NCBI GenBank assembly: GCA_034687125.1
Contig: JAQGBZ010000131.1
Location: forward strand, 62,001 to 126,000
Length of the DNA: 64,000 nt
Origin: Neelides folsomi
Lineage: Eukaryota > Arthropoda > Collembola > Neelipleona > Neelidae
Direction of reading: 5' to 3'
Part shown: piece after piece, positions 2,236 to 57,614 of the stretch
Position numbering within the stretch: position 1 is the first letter of the stretch
How the letters are laid out: the number at the start of each line of letters is the position of its first letter
Made by a program: the position numbers and the translations under genes
The notes under the pieces: generated by a model
What the model was told of the DNA's origin: nothing
What the model saw: only the letters and a program-made list of their open reading frames with translations
The model's database searches: none

Positions 2236-3573
2236 TCAATTGAAAACAATGTTAGCCGAGAGATGCGTACTTTCAGCTCGTTTCGGTATTGGAGGCGGTG
2301 GTTTTTTATTTCTAATAATTTGTTGACTAATGTTATTAATTTGACTCTTATTTGCTCCCTGAAAATTTTCATAGATAATGACTTGAGGAAGGTTATTTAT
2401 TTGCAAATTAGGTTTTGGGAGAGTAGGTGGGATTAGATGAGAGATTGCTGGATTTCTTGGAAGGCTCCGCTGATTTTGATTTTGAAATATAAGATGAGGT
2501 GGACTGTTCCTTGGGAGGCTATTGCTCTGTGAGGTCTGTTGAAGGATTTTATTGTTCTGAAGTGGCGGCAAATCATCTGCATTGGTTCCATAATGTTGAC
2601 TAACCCAAGCTCTCACATTATTCAAATTAGTTGGAGTTCCAGAATCTGTCATACTCTTCTCAGTAGTGGTCATGGCCGTGGGCTCAAATCGAAACCCTAG
2701 GATCTCGTGAGGGGTTGTGTTTTCAACATTGCATTTCTGTGCTACCTGCCACTTCTTTTCCATTACTCTTTGGAGATCTGTGAGAAAGTCTGGTGGAGGA
2801 TCTTCCATTTTCTTCGGACTAGAAGGATGTGATGATGACAAATTATTTTCATTTATAGACTGAGAGGTCTCTCCATGTACTCCTTGACTTCCATTGCTCA
2901 GTCCGTTGTTTCGATGCATGAGACGCTGAGTGAGTTCATTTGCAAAGGAAACTCCCTTTTTGCTATTATTCAAACTGCTCGTGCTTCCTCCGCTCTTAGT
3001 AGCGAGGATTGTCTTGGGTTGCATTGGAAGTTGAGGTACAAAAGAAGGAGCTGGTGGTGGCACGGGAGGAGGCGGACAAAATTCAATTTGCTCAATGTCT
3101 GGCGACGGCGGGACTTCGTGGTCTTCCATAAGAAGCTCAGGAGGTGGAGGTGGCAAGTCCTCATAGTCAAAAACAGAAGACTCCTCAAAGACTGGCGCCG
3201 GCATTCTCGATACTCCCAAAGGTGGTTTGTTGTTTCCTAGAAGTCTTTGGTTCGAGGGGAGTGGGCTTGTAATTTGGACTTGGTGAAGGGTGCTGGATGA
3301 AGAAGAAGAGTTGGAACTGTTCCCACTCGAACTCCTTTTCCGTTGTAATGTGTGAGTGAGATTGGAATTGTGACTGGCATCGGAATTCATGTGTGCTCCA
3401 ATGTTGATATAGTCACCAACAATGGACCTTGTGTTAATCGTAAGAGGGATCTTCGGATTCAAAACTGTTGACGAGGGCTTCCTCTTGATTGTTCCACCCA
3501 CAGGAGCGTCTGACTCGAAACCCTCTTCCCTTGAAAGTTGCGCTGGAGAAGGAGAAGGTGCCGTTGTAAACAT
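2236..3573 (-). CDS. pico: MRL adaptor, last coding exon: proline-rich tail
   Basis: This is the terminal 445 codons, from an acceptor ending in CAG before ATG TTT ACA to a TGA stop. It is low in complexity, with Ser/Asn runs and several polyproline stretches. LPPPPPEL fits the (F/L)PPPP EVH1 ligand of Ena/VASP. FCPPPPVPPPAP and KKPPPPIPKR resemble profilin- or SH3-binding motifs. The middle holds a conserved-looking helical stretch with PPPDFLTDLQRVMEKKWQVA. The role inferred from the family is recruitment of actin polymerases. Overlapping plus-strand frames at 2875-3240 and 2188-2436 are shadows. Confidence 0.9.
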   Translation of the reverse strand: MFTTAPSPSPAQLSREEGFESDAPVGGTIKRKPSSTVLNPKIPLTINTRSIVGDYINIGAHMNSDASHNSNLTHTLQRKRSSSGNSSNSSSSSSTLHQVQITSPLPSNQRLLGNNKPPLGVSRMPAPVFEESSVFDYEDLPPPPPELLMEDHEVPPSPDIEQIEFCPPPPVPPPAPSFVPQLPMQPKTILATKSGGSTSSLNNSKKGVSFANELTQRLMHRNNGLSNGSQGVHGETSQSINENNLSSSHPSSPKKMEDPPPDFLTDLQRVMEKKWQVAQKCNVENTTPHEILGFRFEPTAMTTTEKSMTDSGTPTNLNNVRAWVSQHYGTNADDLPPLQNNKILQQTSQSNSLPRNSPPHLIFQNQNQRSLPRNPAISHLIPPTLPKPNLQINNLPQVIIYENFQGANKSQINNISQQIIRNKKPPPPIPKRAESTHLSANIVFN

Positions 3574-6500
3574 CTGTCCATGCAAATTAGAAACCAAACT
3601 TAGAAATTGAATTCACAATCAATTTTATTTATAGTGTAGTGCATGCCCATAACTTCTTACCGAATGTTCAATGGAATCATTAATGCGATTAGTAGGAACT
3701 TGTGGGGTTGGATTCGAAAATTGCCTCAGACTTGACTTCTCACCGACCTCCATAGACATGATGTTGTTAGTTGAGATTTGTAGTGGCATTGAAGCCAATG
3801 AGACACTCCTTCCAAATCGGTCCAAATCTTCATGAGCTAAATCCTCCATAAGAGTTCGGTAGTTGTCCCAAAGTCGCTTCCCATACTGCGTAGAAAAAAC
3901 TCATTAGCTCACATTTCCCAAGTATTTATAATACAGATATTAAACATATCATGTAATATGTTATATGTATGACTTTACAAATATGTATTAGTTTCCAAAT
4001 TAGGATCTCCCTATGTCTACCTTGGCGATCCTGAGGCCGACCATCCAAAGCCGAAGAGTCTCGGCGTCTTCCGTACAGAGATATTTCATATGCCTGTGCG
4101 ATTTGACTTGAAGGCGAGACGGTTTGAGAGCAAATCCGAATTCGGTCGGTGCCTTGAACTTTTTCTTCCATCCGATTCCCTCGTAAGCCTTTCAAAGAAG
4201 CAAAAGAAATTCAATCAGTCAAAGTCAAAACCCAATCACTCAAGAGCTTAAGTTAGCTAAAGAAAAATCTCAAGAATCTCGAGTGGCAAAAAGTAGACTA
4301 AAAAGATCGAATTTCGAATCAATTCCATCCGTTTTTCCTTGTACGTAATCATACAAAAGAAAATGAAGGAGAAAGTATAAAAAATACTTTATGAAAATGT
4401 AGACTACATTATGCTACATTTTATACTCACACTTTCAGCAAATAGTTAATATTTTATATAGCTGTGTCTGTACTTAAATACAACATTACTTTCTTGGATT
4501 TACTTTTGTACTATATGTAAGTACAGTTAGTTTAGTCATCTTATTCAAAACCAATGTTGCTTAACATTGACTGAAAATTGATGATAAGGATCAGAAAGGA
4601 ATGACAGAGTAAGATGATATTAGGGATAATGTGAACTTGAGGAATTACCTGTTGGTTGGGATCAATTGGAGCGAGGCAAACCAAATCCTTTGAAGAATTC
4701 ACATGAGCTCGACCTTTGGGATAATAATAAATCCCCGATGCTCGAAGTACGAAAGGAAATTTCTTCCAGGCCTTCTTTCCTTCCGCTTTCAAGAAAAGGA
4801 CTGACTCAACTTCAGGAACTCCGACACACTGAGTGAAGAATTCTTCAATGAGACTATTCTTCGTGTGATCATCCATTGGACCCCCATGGGTCACTCGTGT
4901 CTCGAGGAAATATCGTTGGGGGTTCACAAACATGTCATATTTAACATCTCGCTCTACGAAGTAGATCTTGTTCTTTGAGTCCCTCGTCCACATCATCAAG
5001 TTCTCGACCATGTTCTCGTGGTCCTCATAAATTCTCTCTGGAAAGCGGATCAAATGAGCAATGTAAAATGGCTATGTGTCTTTAACTTACCCATGTGAAG
5101 GTGCGGGATGTGTTCCACCAATGCCCATTTATGGGACAATGGGACATGGTTTTTGTCCGCGAGCAGTGCCAGGACTCGTCCACATGACATTGACTCTTCA
5201 ACCATAAGGGCTTTGCTGCTCCCGTCTGGAGAAAATGCCTTCACATAAAGCCGCGTCACGCTCGCGGCACGCATCTTGGCCAGGGCTTCGCGAATCTTCT
5301 CAGCCTTCTCGTCCTGTAAAGCCAAAGAACCGTGAGTTCATCCACTGGACATCTTCAATCCTTAATCATCCAATTTATGAGGGGCTAACAAGGCGATGCG
5401 GAAGATGAGTAATGCCTCTCTCTTCACTTTACAAGTGGGAAAGGGGAGTAGACAGGAGATTTATTTATGAGTGAACGATACGTATCAGCCAAAGCTTTGT
5501 GTCAACTCCGGACGAAACAAGCGATTCGGAACAAGTTGTTAGATATATATATATATATATAATATTATAGGTAGGGAGTGAAGAAGCGGAAGAGTTCCAC
5601 ACACACAAATCAAAGAGCTTGGTCATAAGTCCTTACGCACGGCTCGTCTTTATCAGCACCATACATAAGGGAATATAAACAACAATGTTTGTGCTGTAAA
5701 CTTTTCCAGACGAATTTTCTCTTTTTCATACAACTTAATAAGCTCTTGAGGAATCCACAGTCCATTATTCCTCATTAGGAAGGAGAAGAAGCATAGAAAC
5801 CTTCCTTTGCCTTTCTCAAGCAAATCCCCTTCAAAAGCATAAAAGAACAATGTTGAAAGAAATGCATCTTTGGAAGCTATTCCTTTTAAAGGCTAATTTC
5901 AACCAGGACAGCAGGAAAGGGGAAACAAGTATGCAAATGAAAATCAAAAAACCAAACCCAGAGAATACTTACAGAAATAGCATTTTGGTCACTCTCTAAT
6001 TTGGCTGTAACAAACGCAGCTAGCTAAAGTTGAAAAAAGAAACCAAGATTTGTAATATTCATTTTCAACTTAAAAGGAATGCAAAAAAGTTTTAATAAGT
6101 AATTCTATTCAAAATACAGAACTGTAAATATGTAGTAACTTATAAAATAATATACTAATCCAAACCCTTTAAAGCAGATAATGCCTATTTTAGAAACTAA
6201 TTATGGATTTGATTGATTGCCCAAGTCTTAAAATAAGAAAAATTTAAAGAAAATAAAAGTAGAGGAGAAGAAATGTCATGTAAGGTTAATAGGAAAGTGT
6301 TGTCCTTAGAATAGAAAACAGGGCGGAGTTTCTTGGTGCTTGCTCATCCGTTCATTCTTATTTTACCTCATTAGCGTGAATAACAGTGGATGGTGGGATA
6401 TTCTTGGGGTTGCAGTTGCTAGTGGTGCTGCTCCCACTACTCGATCCACTCGCCGAAAGTGAGCTCCCACTTGAGAGAAGAGATGCATTATCTGAAAACC

Positions 6501-46887: not shown

Positions 46888-49800
46888 CTGAAAAATGTAT
46901 GTAAATATTGAAATATCCCAATTATAAATTATATTAATTTGTTAGCAAATCATAAACGAAAGGGGAAAAATTTAAGAATATTACCTAGACTTGGAGCGAG
47001 AGCGAGATCGGGAACGGCTCCTGGATTTGCTGTTCGACTCCTTCTTCCCTTTGCTTGGCGAACGGGATTTATCTCTTGAATCACGCCCACTGTACAAAAA
47101 ATTAGAATCGATAAAAATTATAAAAGACCTCTCATGCAAATAACTATCTTTGAAAGAAGGCTCTTGTTCGAATAACAGGGCAATAATTTTACAAAATTTT
47201 GTAATAAAGCTAATAATGTGTTGTATAATAGAGTATATTGAATTTTTTAAATTTATATTTAAACTTACACGGAGCGAGAGCGGGACTTTGAACGACTTTT
47301 TGACCTGCTCTTGCTCCTCGTCTTTGACTTGCTCTTCGACCTAAAATGCAGCAAAGAATCAGATAACAGATCTAATAGATAAAGCTTCTATCTACTCGAC
47401 ACAATTTATTGTACGTATTGCATTCGCATCAATCCTATGCACACCAACAATATTGTAATATTTTAATTGTGCCGTATTAAATTTACGCAGTAATGAACAT
47501 TCGAGTTCGCTAGTGCCTGAGATAAAACGAAAAAATGCCCAATTCATGCCGTCACGTCAGAGCCAAGGAAAAAGATGCCCGAAAGAATCCTCAACCCAAG
47601 CATTACGGATCGACAGTTTTTCCCACTCCTAACATGAATCTGTGTAGGTTTCCAAATTTCCATTTGACACACCGGTCAGAATGAAAATTTGAGGAGTGAC
47701 GCATTTTTTTGCCTTACCTCGACCGCGACCTAGAACGAGAATCACGGCGACCACGAGAACGGGATCGAGACCTGCTACGAGAGCGAGACTTGGAACGGGA
47801 ACGGGATGATGAACGAGAGCGGCGACTTCCACGTCCACGTCCACGATCTTCAACCAGCCTCACACGACGTCCATTTAATTCAGTGTCATCCAACTTTTCC
47901 AATGCGGCTTTCAAATCGGAATAACTTGCAAATTCCACAACCCTAATAAAATAAACCATAATTAAGCCTCCCGAAAAACAATTAACAAACTTAAATGGTT
48001 AAATTAAACTCAGAACACGTTGGGAAAAGGAGTCATCATAAACAACTCAGACCCGAAAGATAAGGATCATCATTAAAATAAAATAAATAATGTGAAATTA
48101 TTTAATTTTTTATTACCCTTCATTCCTTCGTTGTTTGTGGGCATCAGCGTATGTGACCTCGCCAGCTTGGCGCATGTAGTCTTTCAGGTCCTTTGAAGAC
48201 AAAGAAAAGAAGCGGGTGAGGAATTTAGGTCAAGGGGCTTTCCTAGGTTGTGATAAATCAACGCAACAGTTGAGAATCTATGGTTGAGAAGAAGCAACTT
48301 CATGCAAATTATTCAATATGCATGAATTTTAGCTCATTGGTTTCATTTATAATAGGTATATTGGGAATGAGTTGATGAAATGAGAGGAAGAGGAAAAGGA
48401 AGGTTGGTGTTTGAAGGAACTTCAACGAGGATTCCACAGGTTCCAGAGCAGGGGTGGACGGCGGAAACCGAGCAGATGACGAAGAGACCCACTCGTCTAT
48501 TATCATTTGATATTACGTGTAGTGTCCACCATCACTTCTTCTTCATATGGCATTTTCCCCGTTCCCTGTTTACCGACTCTCCGTTCTTTCTTCCGATGGA
48601 ATCCCTTCTATCCTTCCTCCAAGACGCGGCCAACAAAGGTCATTATGACACTTGACACGGCAGGGCTCTTTTCCTCACTATTATTCCATCCGTCCTTCAT
48701 CCTTCAAATTGAGTCGAACGAAAGAAAAGGGAGAAGGTACTGTGTGGTAGTAGAAGGGAAAGAGCGGATTTCGGACAAATTGATATAAATGTACTTTATC
48801 TACCTCCTCGCAAGAATCTCGCCTTGTTCTTTTTTTTACTCAAATACTTAATAATAATTGATTAAAAATTCAAATCATTCAAAACAATCGAAATTATCTT
48901 CAACAAGGAATTAAGTAGATATTTTTTTAAAAAATTTATTAATTGTGCAAAAAGGCATTCAAATAAACGAGTCGTGATGGGTGCGAGGGGTAGGAGGAGA
49001 AATAAAAAAGTTTGTATTCAATGGACAATTTACCTTCCCCAGACAAGAGAGGAACACAAAAGCATTGGCAATCGAAACGGACAATTTGGGGGCTTGACGA
49101 ACGGACTAGTCTGGTTGGCCATCTCCTCAGTGGCGGCTAACGATGAACAGAACGGAGGGTCTGAGCCTCCTCCAGCGGCCCCCGCCCAACCCCCCACCCT
49201 TTCCCACAACACCCTTCATCGTCGTCAGAGATGCAAGTGGCCAAGGCGCGTCTAATCTCAACGTCTCCCTCGAGCGAATTTAGTCATCGTCCCAAGAAGC
49301 CTTATGAACGACCGACCCAGAGGAGGAAGGACTGTGGGATGGGGCCATTCCTCATCATCACGACCGAGCGACCATGGCTTAGGATTGGATCGGGCTTAGG
49401 GCAGAAAAAGAGTTTACCCATTATCATTCCATTCCAACTTCTCTAGACCTCTTCTCGTACTCTAAACCCAATTTTAATATAATTCTTTGAACTTGAACGA
49501 AAGCTTATTTTTAATGAAAGGTTTCATTGATTAAATTATTTACTGATTAATACTATTTTTAGAGAAGCCTATCTTATGAATGTCTGAGTAATCTATTAAA
49601 GTTAATGGGCAATTTATTCACGCGATTTTGCTCATTCTAGTCTTAACAAATTTGGATTATTCTAACTTAAGTTGTTTTAATCTTCTACGAAAAAGGCTAT
49701 GAATACAAATTAAAATTATTCATCTATTCATGAAATAATTTTATGTAAATAAAGTATTTAAAAATTTAAAAATTCAATTTATAGGCAATTGAAATGGCTA

Positions 49801-51435
49801 ATGGATTCTATGAAATAAATTGTTTCAATATCAACTTAATACCTGACAGGATATTTCTAGGAAAAATGTTTCAAACATAAAGCATTCTTGGGAGAAGGCA
49901 GCGATGAATGTTTTAAAATATCAAATATCTAACCTTTGTGAATATATGACTAACTTTCGTAATACATTGGAGACTATTCTCAATTCCTCATCTAAAAATA
50001 TTTAAGCCTAGGTATATGAAAAAAGTAGTAGATATTAAATGAGGCTCGAAAGGTCTGGCGAAGATCAGCAATTACCTGCCAAGATACGCGACTCGAAAGA
50101 TTTTCCACGATGAGTCTGTATTCAGTCCGCGTTGGTGGCCCATACCTGGAGCAGAAACACATATTTAAAATAGCAAAACATGCTTAGAACCTTTTCAATC
50201 AACATAATTTGTATTTTTAAATCATATATTTACATAGATAAATTTATTATGCTCGTAATAATTATTAATTAATTAATATATAAATAAAGAGTATTTTTTG
50301 GAAAAAATGATCGATTTCAGTCAGTAGTTTTTAGCCATTTCAGAGGATAGTAGTGCTCATTGTAAAATATAACTCAACTTACTTGTCCGAGCCTCGAGGT
50401 GGCCCTCGTCGTGATCGACCTCGGCCATCCCGGGGCACGCCTCGAGCCCGCTCCACGATCACTCTGAAACAGCCAAAAACAAACCGTGTGAATCTTTCGT
50501 CTTTCCAGTACGCACTGTTTGGGGCGTCCGCTTCCTCCCGTTGGCTCCCTTCGGTCTCTGTAACCACCACCACCACCACTCCCGCCACTCCCTGTCCGGC
50601 GAGAACCATAACCTCGGGATGAAGCATGTGCCAATTCGACTACAACTCTACACATCACAGAAATATGTTTAGCTGCCGCCCTCGATTCACATGTCCAACT
50701 CTTACCTGCTAAAATATACTAAATATTACTAATCTCCTTTATATGTAAAAATAAATGAATTGAACATGAGAATGAGTAGCGATAAGTTAATTCGATAATA
50801 CATTTAGGTCATTAGACATTACATATCCATCATTATCATTTAGTTTGTAAATTGCTCTTTCACGATTGAAATTAAAAATATTAAAAGTGAACAAATTTAC
50901 TTTAAAAAAATAAAAACCTAAGCCATGCTGCCATAAAAGTGATTCAATGACAAATTTAATCAATAAAGCTTTCGCATAATGCTTTTGCAATATTAATTAA
51001 CTCAATGGCGGCTTTTAAGTTGCCCGTGATGTGTTTAAACGAGATGACAATGAATGTATGAAATGTTTTTTTATTTTTAACAATACCTCTCTCCCAGTAA
51101 ATCCTTTCCATTTAGTTCGTAAACTGCGTCATCTGCGTCTCTGTAGTCGTCGAATTCCTATTAGTTAAAGTAAAATTATGAAAATATTCTTAAACATAGT
51201 TGAAAACTAATTATTTCTCGAGTATACATATTCTAATGTAAAAAAACATTAATTAATGTGAGTTGGAAGATGAGGAAAAAATTACAGAGGTAATGAAAAA
51301 TGTACTTACAACAAATCCATAACCATTTTTAATTAAAATGTCCCGAATCCGTCCGTAACCCTTGAAAAATCTCTCAAGATCTTTCTCCCGGACACCGTAT
51401 GGTAAGCCGCCGATGTAGACTCTTGTTCCTCCCAT
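46776..51435 (-). CDS. B52: SR splicing factor with two RRMs (B52 / SRSF4-5-6 type), whole gene
   Basis: This is a nuclear pre-mRNA splicing regulator that binds exonic enhancers and recruits spliceosome parts through its RS domain. Minus-strand exons are 51435-51310, 51157-51087, then 50647-50516 or 50463-50383, then 50145-50076, 48190-48117, 47942-47718, 47340-47269, 47089-46985 and 46887-46776. All are GT-AG and in frame, giving 328 or 311 residues. RRM1 has RNP2 VYIGGL and RNP1 NGYGFVEF. RRM2 is the pseudo-RRM with SWQDLKDYM. The tail is a long RS domain ending in PIPSDKDD. Lengths and the two-RRM layout match SRSF4/5/6. A candidate AATAAA (complement of 46556-46561) follows the stop. Confidence 0.95.
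46985..47089 (-). CDS. B52: SR protein RS-domain exon
   Basis: The 105-bp exon reads [20 protein letters not shown], followed by [17 protein letters not shown]. The acceptor is TTGTACAG and the donor TCTAG|GTAATA. It is a multiple of three, so skipping would keep frame. Confidence 0.87.
47269..47340 (-). CDS. B52: SR protein RS-domain exon (72 bp)
   Basis: [20 protein letters not shown] plus SRS lies between the acceptor CATTTTAG and the donor TCCGT|GTAAGT. It is a multiple of three with phase 2 on both sides, like its neighbours, so the RS domain could be shortened by exon skipping. Confidence 0.85.
47718..47942 (-). CDS. B52: SR protein exon: end of RRM2 and start of RS domain
   Basis: The exon reads [20 protein letters not shown] and [12 protein letters not shown], then [20 protein letters not shown] and more RS repeats. 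The acceptor is TTTTATTAG and the donor TCGAG|GTAAGG. The downstream intron (47341-47717) keeps an open frame for some distance in the minus direction, so intron retention would add a non-RS tail before a stop at 47629. Confidence 0.93.
48117..48190 (-). CDS. B52: SR protein exon: RRM2 core
   Basis: These 74 bases read [20 protein letters not shown] and RRNEG, nearly the invariant RRM2 helix and strand of B52/SRSF4-6. The acceptor is TTCAAAG and the donor GG|GTAATA. Confidence 0.93.
48191..50075. other. Long SR-gene intron within RRM2, with complex blocks
   Basis: This 1.9-kb intron is the longest in the gene and separates SWQ from DLKDY. Blocks at about 48.35-48.79 and 48.96-49.45 kb are much less AT-rich than the rest and carry overlapping open frames on both strands (e.g. 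48974-49255 and 49030-49212). SR genes commonly hold conserved poison exons in such introns for autoregulation (established knowledge). Whether one is here is not shown. Confidence 0.45.
50076..50145 (-). CDS. B52: SR protein exon: start of RRM2
   Basis: A 70-bp exon reading [20 protein letters not shown] followed by SWQ. It follows the acceptor CTGCTCCAG and ends CAG|GTAATT in phase 0. [19 protein letters not shown] is the hallmark entry to the second RRM. Confidence 0.95.
50383..50463 (-). CDS. B52: SR protein RRM1-closing exon, version B (27 codons)
   Basis: After the acceptor GCTGTTTCAG it reads [20 protein letters not shown], then PPRGSD, ending GAC AA|GTAAGT. It supplies the last RRM1 strand (V-I-V-E-x-A-R-G) and a short basic Arg/Gly linker. 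Its entry and exit phases are identical to those of version A at 50647-50516, and both splice from ..LLGER and to YGPPTRTEY. It is probably used as an alternative to version A. It resembles the usual (R)VTVEHARG form more closely. Confidence 0.82.
50516..50647 (-). CDS. B52: SR protein RRM1-closing exon, version A (44 codons)
   Basis: After the acceptor GATGTGTAG it reads [20 protein letters not shown], then a Gly-rich linker and [13 protein letters not shown], ending AAA CA|GTGCGT. It encodes the same final RRM1 strand (VVVELA) as version B, plus a longer Gly-rich linker. At 132 bp it is a multiple of three in phase 2/2. The gap to version B is only 52 bp, short for an intron, which would sterically favour mutually exclusive use. 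Confidence 0.82.
51087..51157 (-). CDS. B52: SR protein exon 2: RRM1 core
   Basis: These 71 bases read [20 protein letters not shown] followed by LGE and part of Arg. It completes RNP1 (NGYGFV|EF). The acceptor is CTAATAG and the donor GAGAG|GTATTG. Confidence 0.93.
51310..51435 (-). CDS. B52: SR protein first coding exon
   Basis: The ATG at 51435 opens [20 protein letters not shown], then [20 protein letters not shown] and FV|GTAAGT. It has a classic RNP2 (VYIGGL). No other ATG precedes it closely. It lies head-to-head with the plus-strand gene starting at 51571. Confidence 0.94.
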
Positions 51436-56962: not shown

Positions 56963-57614
56963 CTAATTTGGAAAATCGTACAATTTAACAGTGAACTTTA
57001 AAGGTCGCAACTCCAACTCACGCTCCAACTTCATAATCTTCAAATCCTTAAGATAAATTTCACGTTCCAAGCAGTCATTTTGAAGTTTTCTCTTCTTTCT
57101 GAGATCTTCTTGAACATCATTTCTCATTTTTGGAATATTTATTCCCTTCTTTGTAGTCGAACAAGTTTGAACATAACCGATATTGGTTATAACCAAGGAC
57201 GAAGTTGAAGGAATTGGCTTCAAGGTTGGATCTTTTAAATCCTCATTCACAATTTCGTTTTTTGGGAGGAAAGTTGTTTCCACTCCTTTGATTCCATCCA
57301 GCAATGGCGATTCCCTTCCAATCATGTCCAAAATTAAATTGTCGCATTCGTTGTAAGCCATTGACTTTCCACCTCCATTTTCTGTCTGTTTTTTCTCGTC
57401 GCGTTTGGCCAAGGTCCTTGACTTCCAAACTGCAAATTTGGAACGAAGCTCTTCGTAAGTCGCTGAAGACTTGTAGAGTTCAAAGGTCTTTGCTTTTTTA
57501 AGAATGGGATCCCAAGCATCTTGCTTCTTCTTGCTCAGTACAGCATTCCATACTCAGCCTTAATCATCGTAATAATGAGCTTCTTTGCTTTCGAATCAAC
57601 TCTCCTCCCCATCT
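56963..57614 (-). pseudogene. PIF/Harbinger Myb/SANT-like DNA-binding protein, one frame break
   Basis: The ATG at 57614 opens MGRRVDSKAKKLIITMIKAE, then the frame breaks near 57540 (a one-base shift gives a stop). From there to 56963 a long frame continues LSKKKQDAWDPILKKAKTFE, TYEELRSKFAVWKSRTLAKR, a Ser/Thr linker and a C-terminal coiled coil (KLQNDCLEREIYLKDLKIMK). The Trp-spaced trihelix is the Myb/SANT module by which these partner proteins bring the transposase to the ends. It is nearly intact except for the single shift. Confidence 0.78.

Follow-up and report, generated by a model that had tools for sequence, protein, structure and literature searches.

Alternative splicing of SR genes is known mainly as a means to destroy the message. 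In the SRSF5/B52 genes, the same subfamily as the gene analyzed here, a poison exon or intron retention at the position of human intron 5 is described as essentially universal across metazoa, and the same paper describes an exon structure strikingly conserved over the range from sea anemone to human, one subfamily member per invertebrate genome as the rule, and SRSF5-like invertebrate genes of the SRSF4/5/6 subfamily (PMC4379411). That published event makes no protein, in contrast to the two exon forms presented below, A and B, which are both predicted to be productive. The term "mutually exclusive" is absent from the main text of PMC4379411, whose account of these genes, as far as it is used here, has no duplicated exon at the RRM1 end, and among the matches listed from freely accessible papers no title or abstract presented mutually exclusive exons in the SRSF4/5/6 or B52 genes.

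The U2AF1 (U2AF35) gene encodes a splicing factor and has tandem alternative exons, Ab and 3, that alter its own RNA-binding part; one exon of that pair is also the weaker in splice signals, as described in PMC5224494 and PMC6821156. By analogy, U2AF1 is a clear precedent for alternative exons in the RNA-binding part of a splicing factor, and it makes plain that switching of this sort can be important. The locus described here differs from U2AF1 in the protein family, in the unequal lengths of A and B (132 and 81 nt, both multiples of three), in the altered region, which is the inter-RRM linker plus the strand end, and in being predicted from DNA sequence. For the OGDH exons 4a/4b, mutual exclusion is ascribed to branch points close to the donor site of the intron between the two (PMC7969005). 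A branch point near the intervening donor is predicted here too, from one motif, but the entire gap is 52 nt. A productive exon pair changing the RNA grip of an SR protein would be a quality switch, not a quantity switch, with two linker types within one gene, and an invertebrate with a single gene of the subfamily would make the case easy to test.

The SR gene and its exon structure

In the analyzed stretch of 64,000 nucleotides from Neelides folsomi (the window) we detected a two-RRM SR gene of the SRSF4/5/6 (fly B52) type on the minus strand, beginning at 51435 and extending to about 46800-46780. It carries RRM1 and an RRM2 with SWQDLKD, matches SRSF6, and has a C-terminal RS domain that begins in e6 and continues in further RS-rich frames down to about 46780. 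The best PDB match of RRM2 is human SRSF6 RRM2 (9hx5, 4.1e-43), and RRM1 matches SRSF6 RRM1 (9r53, 3.7e-31), with SRSF1 (7abg) ranking between these two entries. The first coding exon, e1 (51310-51435, minus strand, as are all exons below), contains the RRM1 start and reads to NGYGFV; e2 (51087-51157) carries the AG of a split Arg codon and ends at the donor GAG/GTATTG, which scores 8.3; e4 (50076-50145) starts RRM2 and opens with YGPPTRTEY; e5 (48117-48190) is a coding exon whose last codon takes one base from e6 (47718-47942), where the RS domain starts and whose 3' end was placed by eye. The frames of e1, e2, A or B, e4, e5, and e6 join without a stop. The introns lie after GFV, GE/R, K/YGPP, SWQ, and NEG, positions that may correspond to those of human SRSF5.

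The search of the assembly (75.1 Mb in 840 contigs, possibly incomplete) detected no second SR gene of the SRSF4/5/6 type, and no paralogue or spliced retrocopy able to reveal the transcript. With the 133-residue isoform A as query there were 17 matches at E <=1, four of them the gene's own exons and the best of the others at 38% identity (1.1e-5), while the A-to-B DNA query had one match, itself. Pattern searches of two collections without animal DNA matched 14 stretches of viral contigs and 111 stretches of genome contigs, and no relative was among them. None of the six listed NCBIfam families scored above the cut-off.

Two exons for the end of RRM1

Exons A and B are adjacent between e2 and e4. 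Exon A (50516-50647, 132 nt) encodes the RRM1 strand VVVE followed by a Gly-rich linker and is bounded by the acceptor ATGTGTAG and the donor ACA/GTGCGT; exon B (50383-50463, 81 nt) encodes VIVE followed by a short Arg-rich linker, with the acceptor TTTTTGGCTGTTTCAG and the donor CAA/GTAAGT. Each opens with the base A after an AG and completes the split codon AG/A (Arg), and both leave in the same phase, which fits YGPPTRTEY of e4, so that the e2-A-e4 and e2-B-e4 joins each give a complete RRM1-RRM2 protein. The two are thus adjacent exons for the same protein region, with the same phases and an open product each. The original prediction of two phase-matched coding exons at one place in the gene, each finishing RRM1 and with different linkers, is supported, and rereading of the sequence confirmed their coordinates, the split Arg codon, the shared exit phase, and the 52-nt spacing.

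The start pattern AG-R-[VI][VI]-V-E, read in any frame, occurs at two places, A and B, in 175,546 bases on both strands (the window plus 46 loci, L027-L072), and a looser pattern detected no additional exon starts within the introns. A-only, B-only, A plus B, and neither all remain in frame, as the lengths are multiples of three, so that any exclusion would have to act through the splice sites rather than through NMD. The sole frame-breaking form is gap retention. As previously proposed, the A frame stays open over the gap and through B, which is then read in another frame, and the resulting 265-nt A-gap-B form puts e4 out of frame, where a stop is met.

In the reading that we prefer, and consider somewhat more probable than not, the two represent alternative forms of a single exon with mutually exclusive use, B as the default and A as the regulated form.

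Exon A as a probable linker-coding sequence

The sole in-phase GT of A ahead of the gap is at the exact point where the linker must end. The A linker aligns with the linker of human SRSF6 (9hx5), isoform A reaching 155.8 bits and isoform B 150.5 bits. Its score was reached by 2 of 5000 residue shuffles, by 14 of 5000 with the Gly runs kept together, and by one of 2782 sampled stop-free 43-residue windows, which was A itself; the linker tail without the Gly run was not significant (307/5000). SRSF6 RRM1 (9r53) is matched by B through VIVERARG with 111.6 bits and by A through VVVELA with 106.6 bits. The third-codon-position signal of A was equaled in 2 of 10000 permutations, in 83 without the GGT run, and in 1278 without the Gly codons, and it stems mostly from the Gly codons.

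The Pfam RRM_1 profile gave similar scores, 69.2 to 70.3 bits, to the forms with A, with B, with both, and with neither, and was useless for discriminating A from B, since it ends at the last strand. In the comparison of linker types, the A linker was found similar to those of fly B52, SRSF4, and SRSF6, and the B linker to those of SRSF4 and SRSF5, in each case mostly via the shared strand. With the strand removed, the best resemblances were A to SRSF4 (30/2000 shuffles), A to SRSF6 (40/2000), and B to SRSF4 (44/2000). The assignment of A as SRSF6-like and B as SRSF5-like was dropped.

Splice-site strength and the probable default form

Splice sites were scored against introns of the same genome. 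From the PF00118 and PF00069 listings 46 exon pairs were chosen by eye, 45 of which yielded an intron; 14 of the 45 were discarded for a non-zero length deviation and 31 well-placed introns were kept. The choice of the GT-AG pair used the consensus itself, so the scores of the true sites are somewhat flattered. The A donor scores 0.3, a value as low as only 1 of the 31 true donors and matched or exceeded by 61 of 110 decoy GTs, and the A acceptor scores 4.2, with 9 of the 31 true sites at or below it and 13 of 130 decoy AGs as high. Both B sites score 6.9, a value reached by 5 of 110 decoys for the donor and 5 of 130 for the acceptor. The A acceptor is fair and the A donor is poor, whereas the B sites are ordinary, suggesting that B is probably the default and A is regulated or rare. 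Of the two competing exons that had been proposed, the pair stands but an equal rivalry does not, given the A donor. Joining of e2 to B would use ordinary sites; joining of e2 to A would end at a weak donor and probably needs an activator or a particular condition.

The same scores are compatible with B as the sole exon in regular use and A as a former exon, in decay or in use very rarely, with linker-like sequence, a reading that we consider unlikely though not negligible. It would account for an A donor among the weakest and for an acceptor that is only fair, and broken exon copies do exist at this locus: in the intron before A, at 50829-50855 (minus strand), we detected a decayed partial copy of e2, identical in 22 of 27 nt to 51127-51101 (AIYKLNDND versus AVYELNGKD). 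This match is one of 30 exon-intron comparisons, and its score was equaled neither in 2000 dinucleotide shuffles nor in the 268 other window segments. Against a former exon, A shows 132 nt without a stop or frame damage and both boundaries in phase, yet a second frame of A is also open, so that openness alone is weak evidence; its linker is still SRSF6-like.

The e2 fragment suggests that an old local duplication took place in this part of the gene, but does not prove that the A/B pair arose thereby. At the DNA level A and B are not similar (their score was equaled in 409 of 500 shuffles), and the proteins show a weak global similarity (score reached by 10 of 2000 shuffles); a common origin of the two exons is not proven by these comparisons.

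Alternatively, the acceptor of A could be an alternative 3' splice site of a long exon. Such an exon would run either to the B donor (265 nt, with a premature stop and mRNA decay) or to an in-phase donor at 50419 inside B that scores 5.3 (228 nt, an in-frame long form). The poor A donor would thereby be avoided, and the frame shift and stop in e4 of the 265-nt form would agree with the unproductive splicing that SR genes are described as usually showing (PMC4379411). Why A ends as an SRSF6-like linker right at an in-phase GT would be left unexplained, and the 21-residue read-through part is not linker-like; we regard this explanation as improbable.

Joining of A to B

The gap between A and B (50464-50515, 52 nt, GT...AG) had been called too short for a normal intron, which is overstated. 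The shortest of the 31 well-placed introns are 54, 63, 74, and 80 nt, and the 54-nt intron, in an AGC-type kinase gene (L061, G000:C85:38000-39400), is authentic by the kinase reading PEYLAPEVLED, so that 52 nt is at the edge of the range and not beyond it. Steric exclusion in human exon pairs is described for a donor-to-branch-point distance of <50 nt (PMC5740500). One yUnAy motif was found in the gap, TTCAC with its A at 50489, the sole consensus branch-point-like sequence, 26 nt from the A donor; this distance, obtained by motif prediction in a genome that does have a 54-nt intron, should hinder the joining of A to B. Joint inclusion of both exons, which had been judged unlikely, is thus disfavored by the predicted branch point, while the argument from size is weakened.

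That A would be an optional cassette, spliced to B across an intron of 52 nt so as to form a single long linker, appears very improbable. The frame would be kept on double inclusion, the gap has GT-AG ends, a strong acceptor, and the branch-point-like TTCAC, and an intron of 54 nt is known in this genome; however, all 31 well-placed introns are longer than 52 nt, the A donor is poor, and the last RRM1 strand would recur inside the linker.

RNA structure was rejected as a switch between A and B. The fold predicted for 50720-50360 is within the normal range (z -1.18, 14 of 100 shuffles), and the only inverted repeats found are AT-rich.

Predicted effect on RNA binding

According to the preferred reading, mutually exclusive use of A and B, the protein would contain either an Arg-rich 27-residue or a Gly-rich 44-residue segment between the RRM1 body and RRM2. 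Recounting up to e4 confirmed these two linker forms as they had been described, and gave a net charge of +5 for A and +6 for B. The Glu ending RRM1, aligned to solved structures, is kept in both forms; the residues after it are LAHASS in A but RARGVP in B. The corresponding Glu of SRSF1 (E87, strand 4, at the end of RRM1) is described as setting the base preference, E87N allowing uridine binding, and the flexible SRSF1 linker as permitting RRM1 to bind on either side of RRM2 (PMC7813835); for SRSF1/9, the nonapeptide ending RRM1 is described as affecting splicing through its Arg residues (PMC10512959). A and B diverge directly after the conserved RNA-contacting Glu, suggesting that specificity may change. 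The choice of exon would alter the residues past this Glu as well as how long and how densely charged the tether is and, by analogy with SRSF1, we infer that the two forms should be unlike in their RNA preference or in the spacing of the RRM grip.

Proposed autoregulation and other elements of the locus

Autoregulation through the A/B pair, put forward in the original prediction, found no support; the autoregulatory device published for the subfamily operates at a different intron, by unproductive splicing (PMC4379411). A G+C-rich island (0.57) in the e4-e5 intron, at 49394-49034 on the minus strand, is a possible poison exon, with a donor of 9.0, an acceptor of 0.3, and a stop in frame. The e4-e5 intron presumably corresponds to human SRSF5 intron 5, judging from the exon boundaries.

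We additionally detected a fused acceptor-donor, TATTTAGTATATTTTAGCAG/GTAAGAGT, at 50705-50706 (minus strand), with the intron starting at 50705. The donor CAG/GTAAGA scores 9.7, the best in the e2-e4 interval, and is fused to an acceptor of 7.8. No other fused AG/GT site as good was found in the 175,546 bases on both strands, an observation made after the fact, and 12 GTs there score as high as this donor. The site may be a recursive splice site or a relic; it may also serve as donor to a poison exon such as the 31-nt segment 50736-50706, which has a stop in frame.

A recursive site would allow an extended form of the mutually exclusive reading, in which the SR factor switches its own RNA-reading surface at the RRM1 end, together with the inter-RRM tether, and the choice is set at 50705; we regard this reading as very improbable. 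Splicing of e2 at 50705 would regenerate the donor GAG/GTAAGA, 58 nt from the A acceptor and 242 nt from that of B; B would then be the expected outcome of the two-step path, and A of the direct one. The resulting protein could feed back on the choice between A and B.

Elsewhere in the window, frames at 2236-5337 (minus strand) resemble an actin-regulating protein of the RIAM/lamellipodin type with a Pro-rich tail, and a 196-residue frame at 56963-57553 (minus strand) resembles a MADF-type DNA-binding protein.
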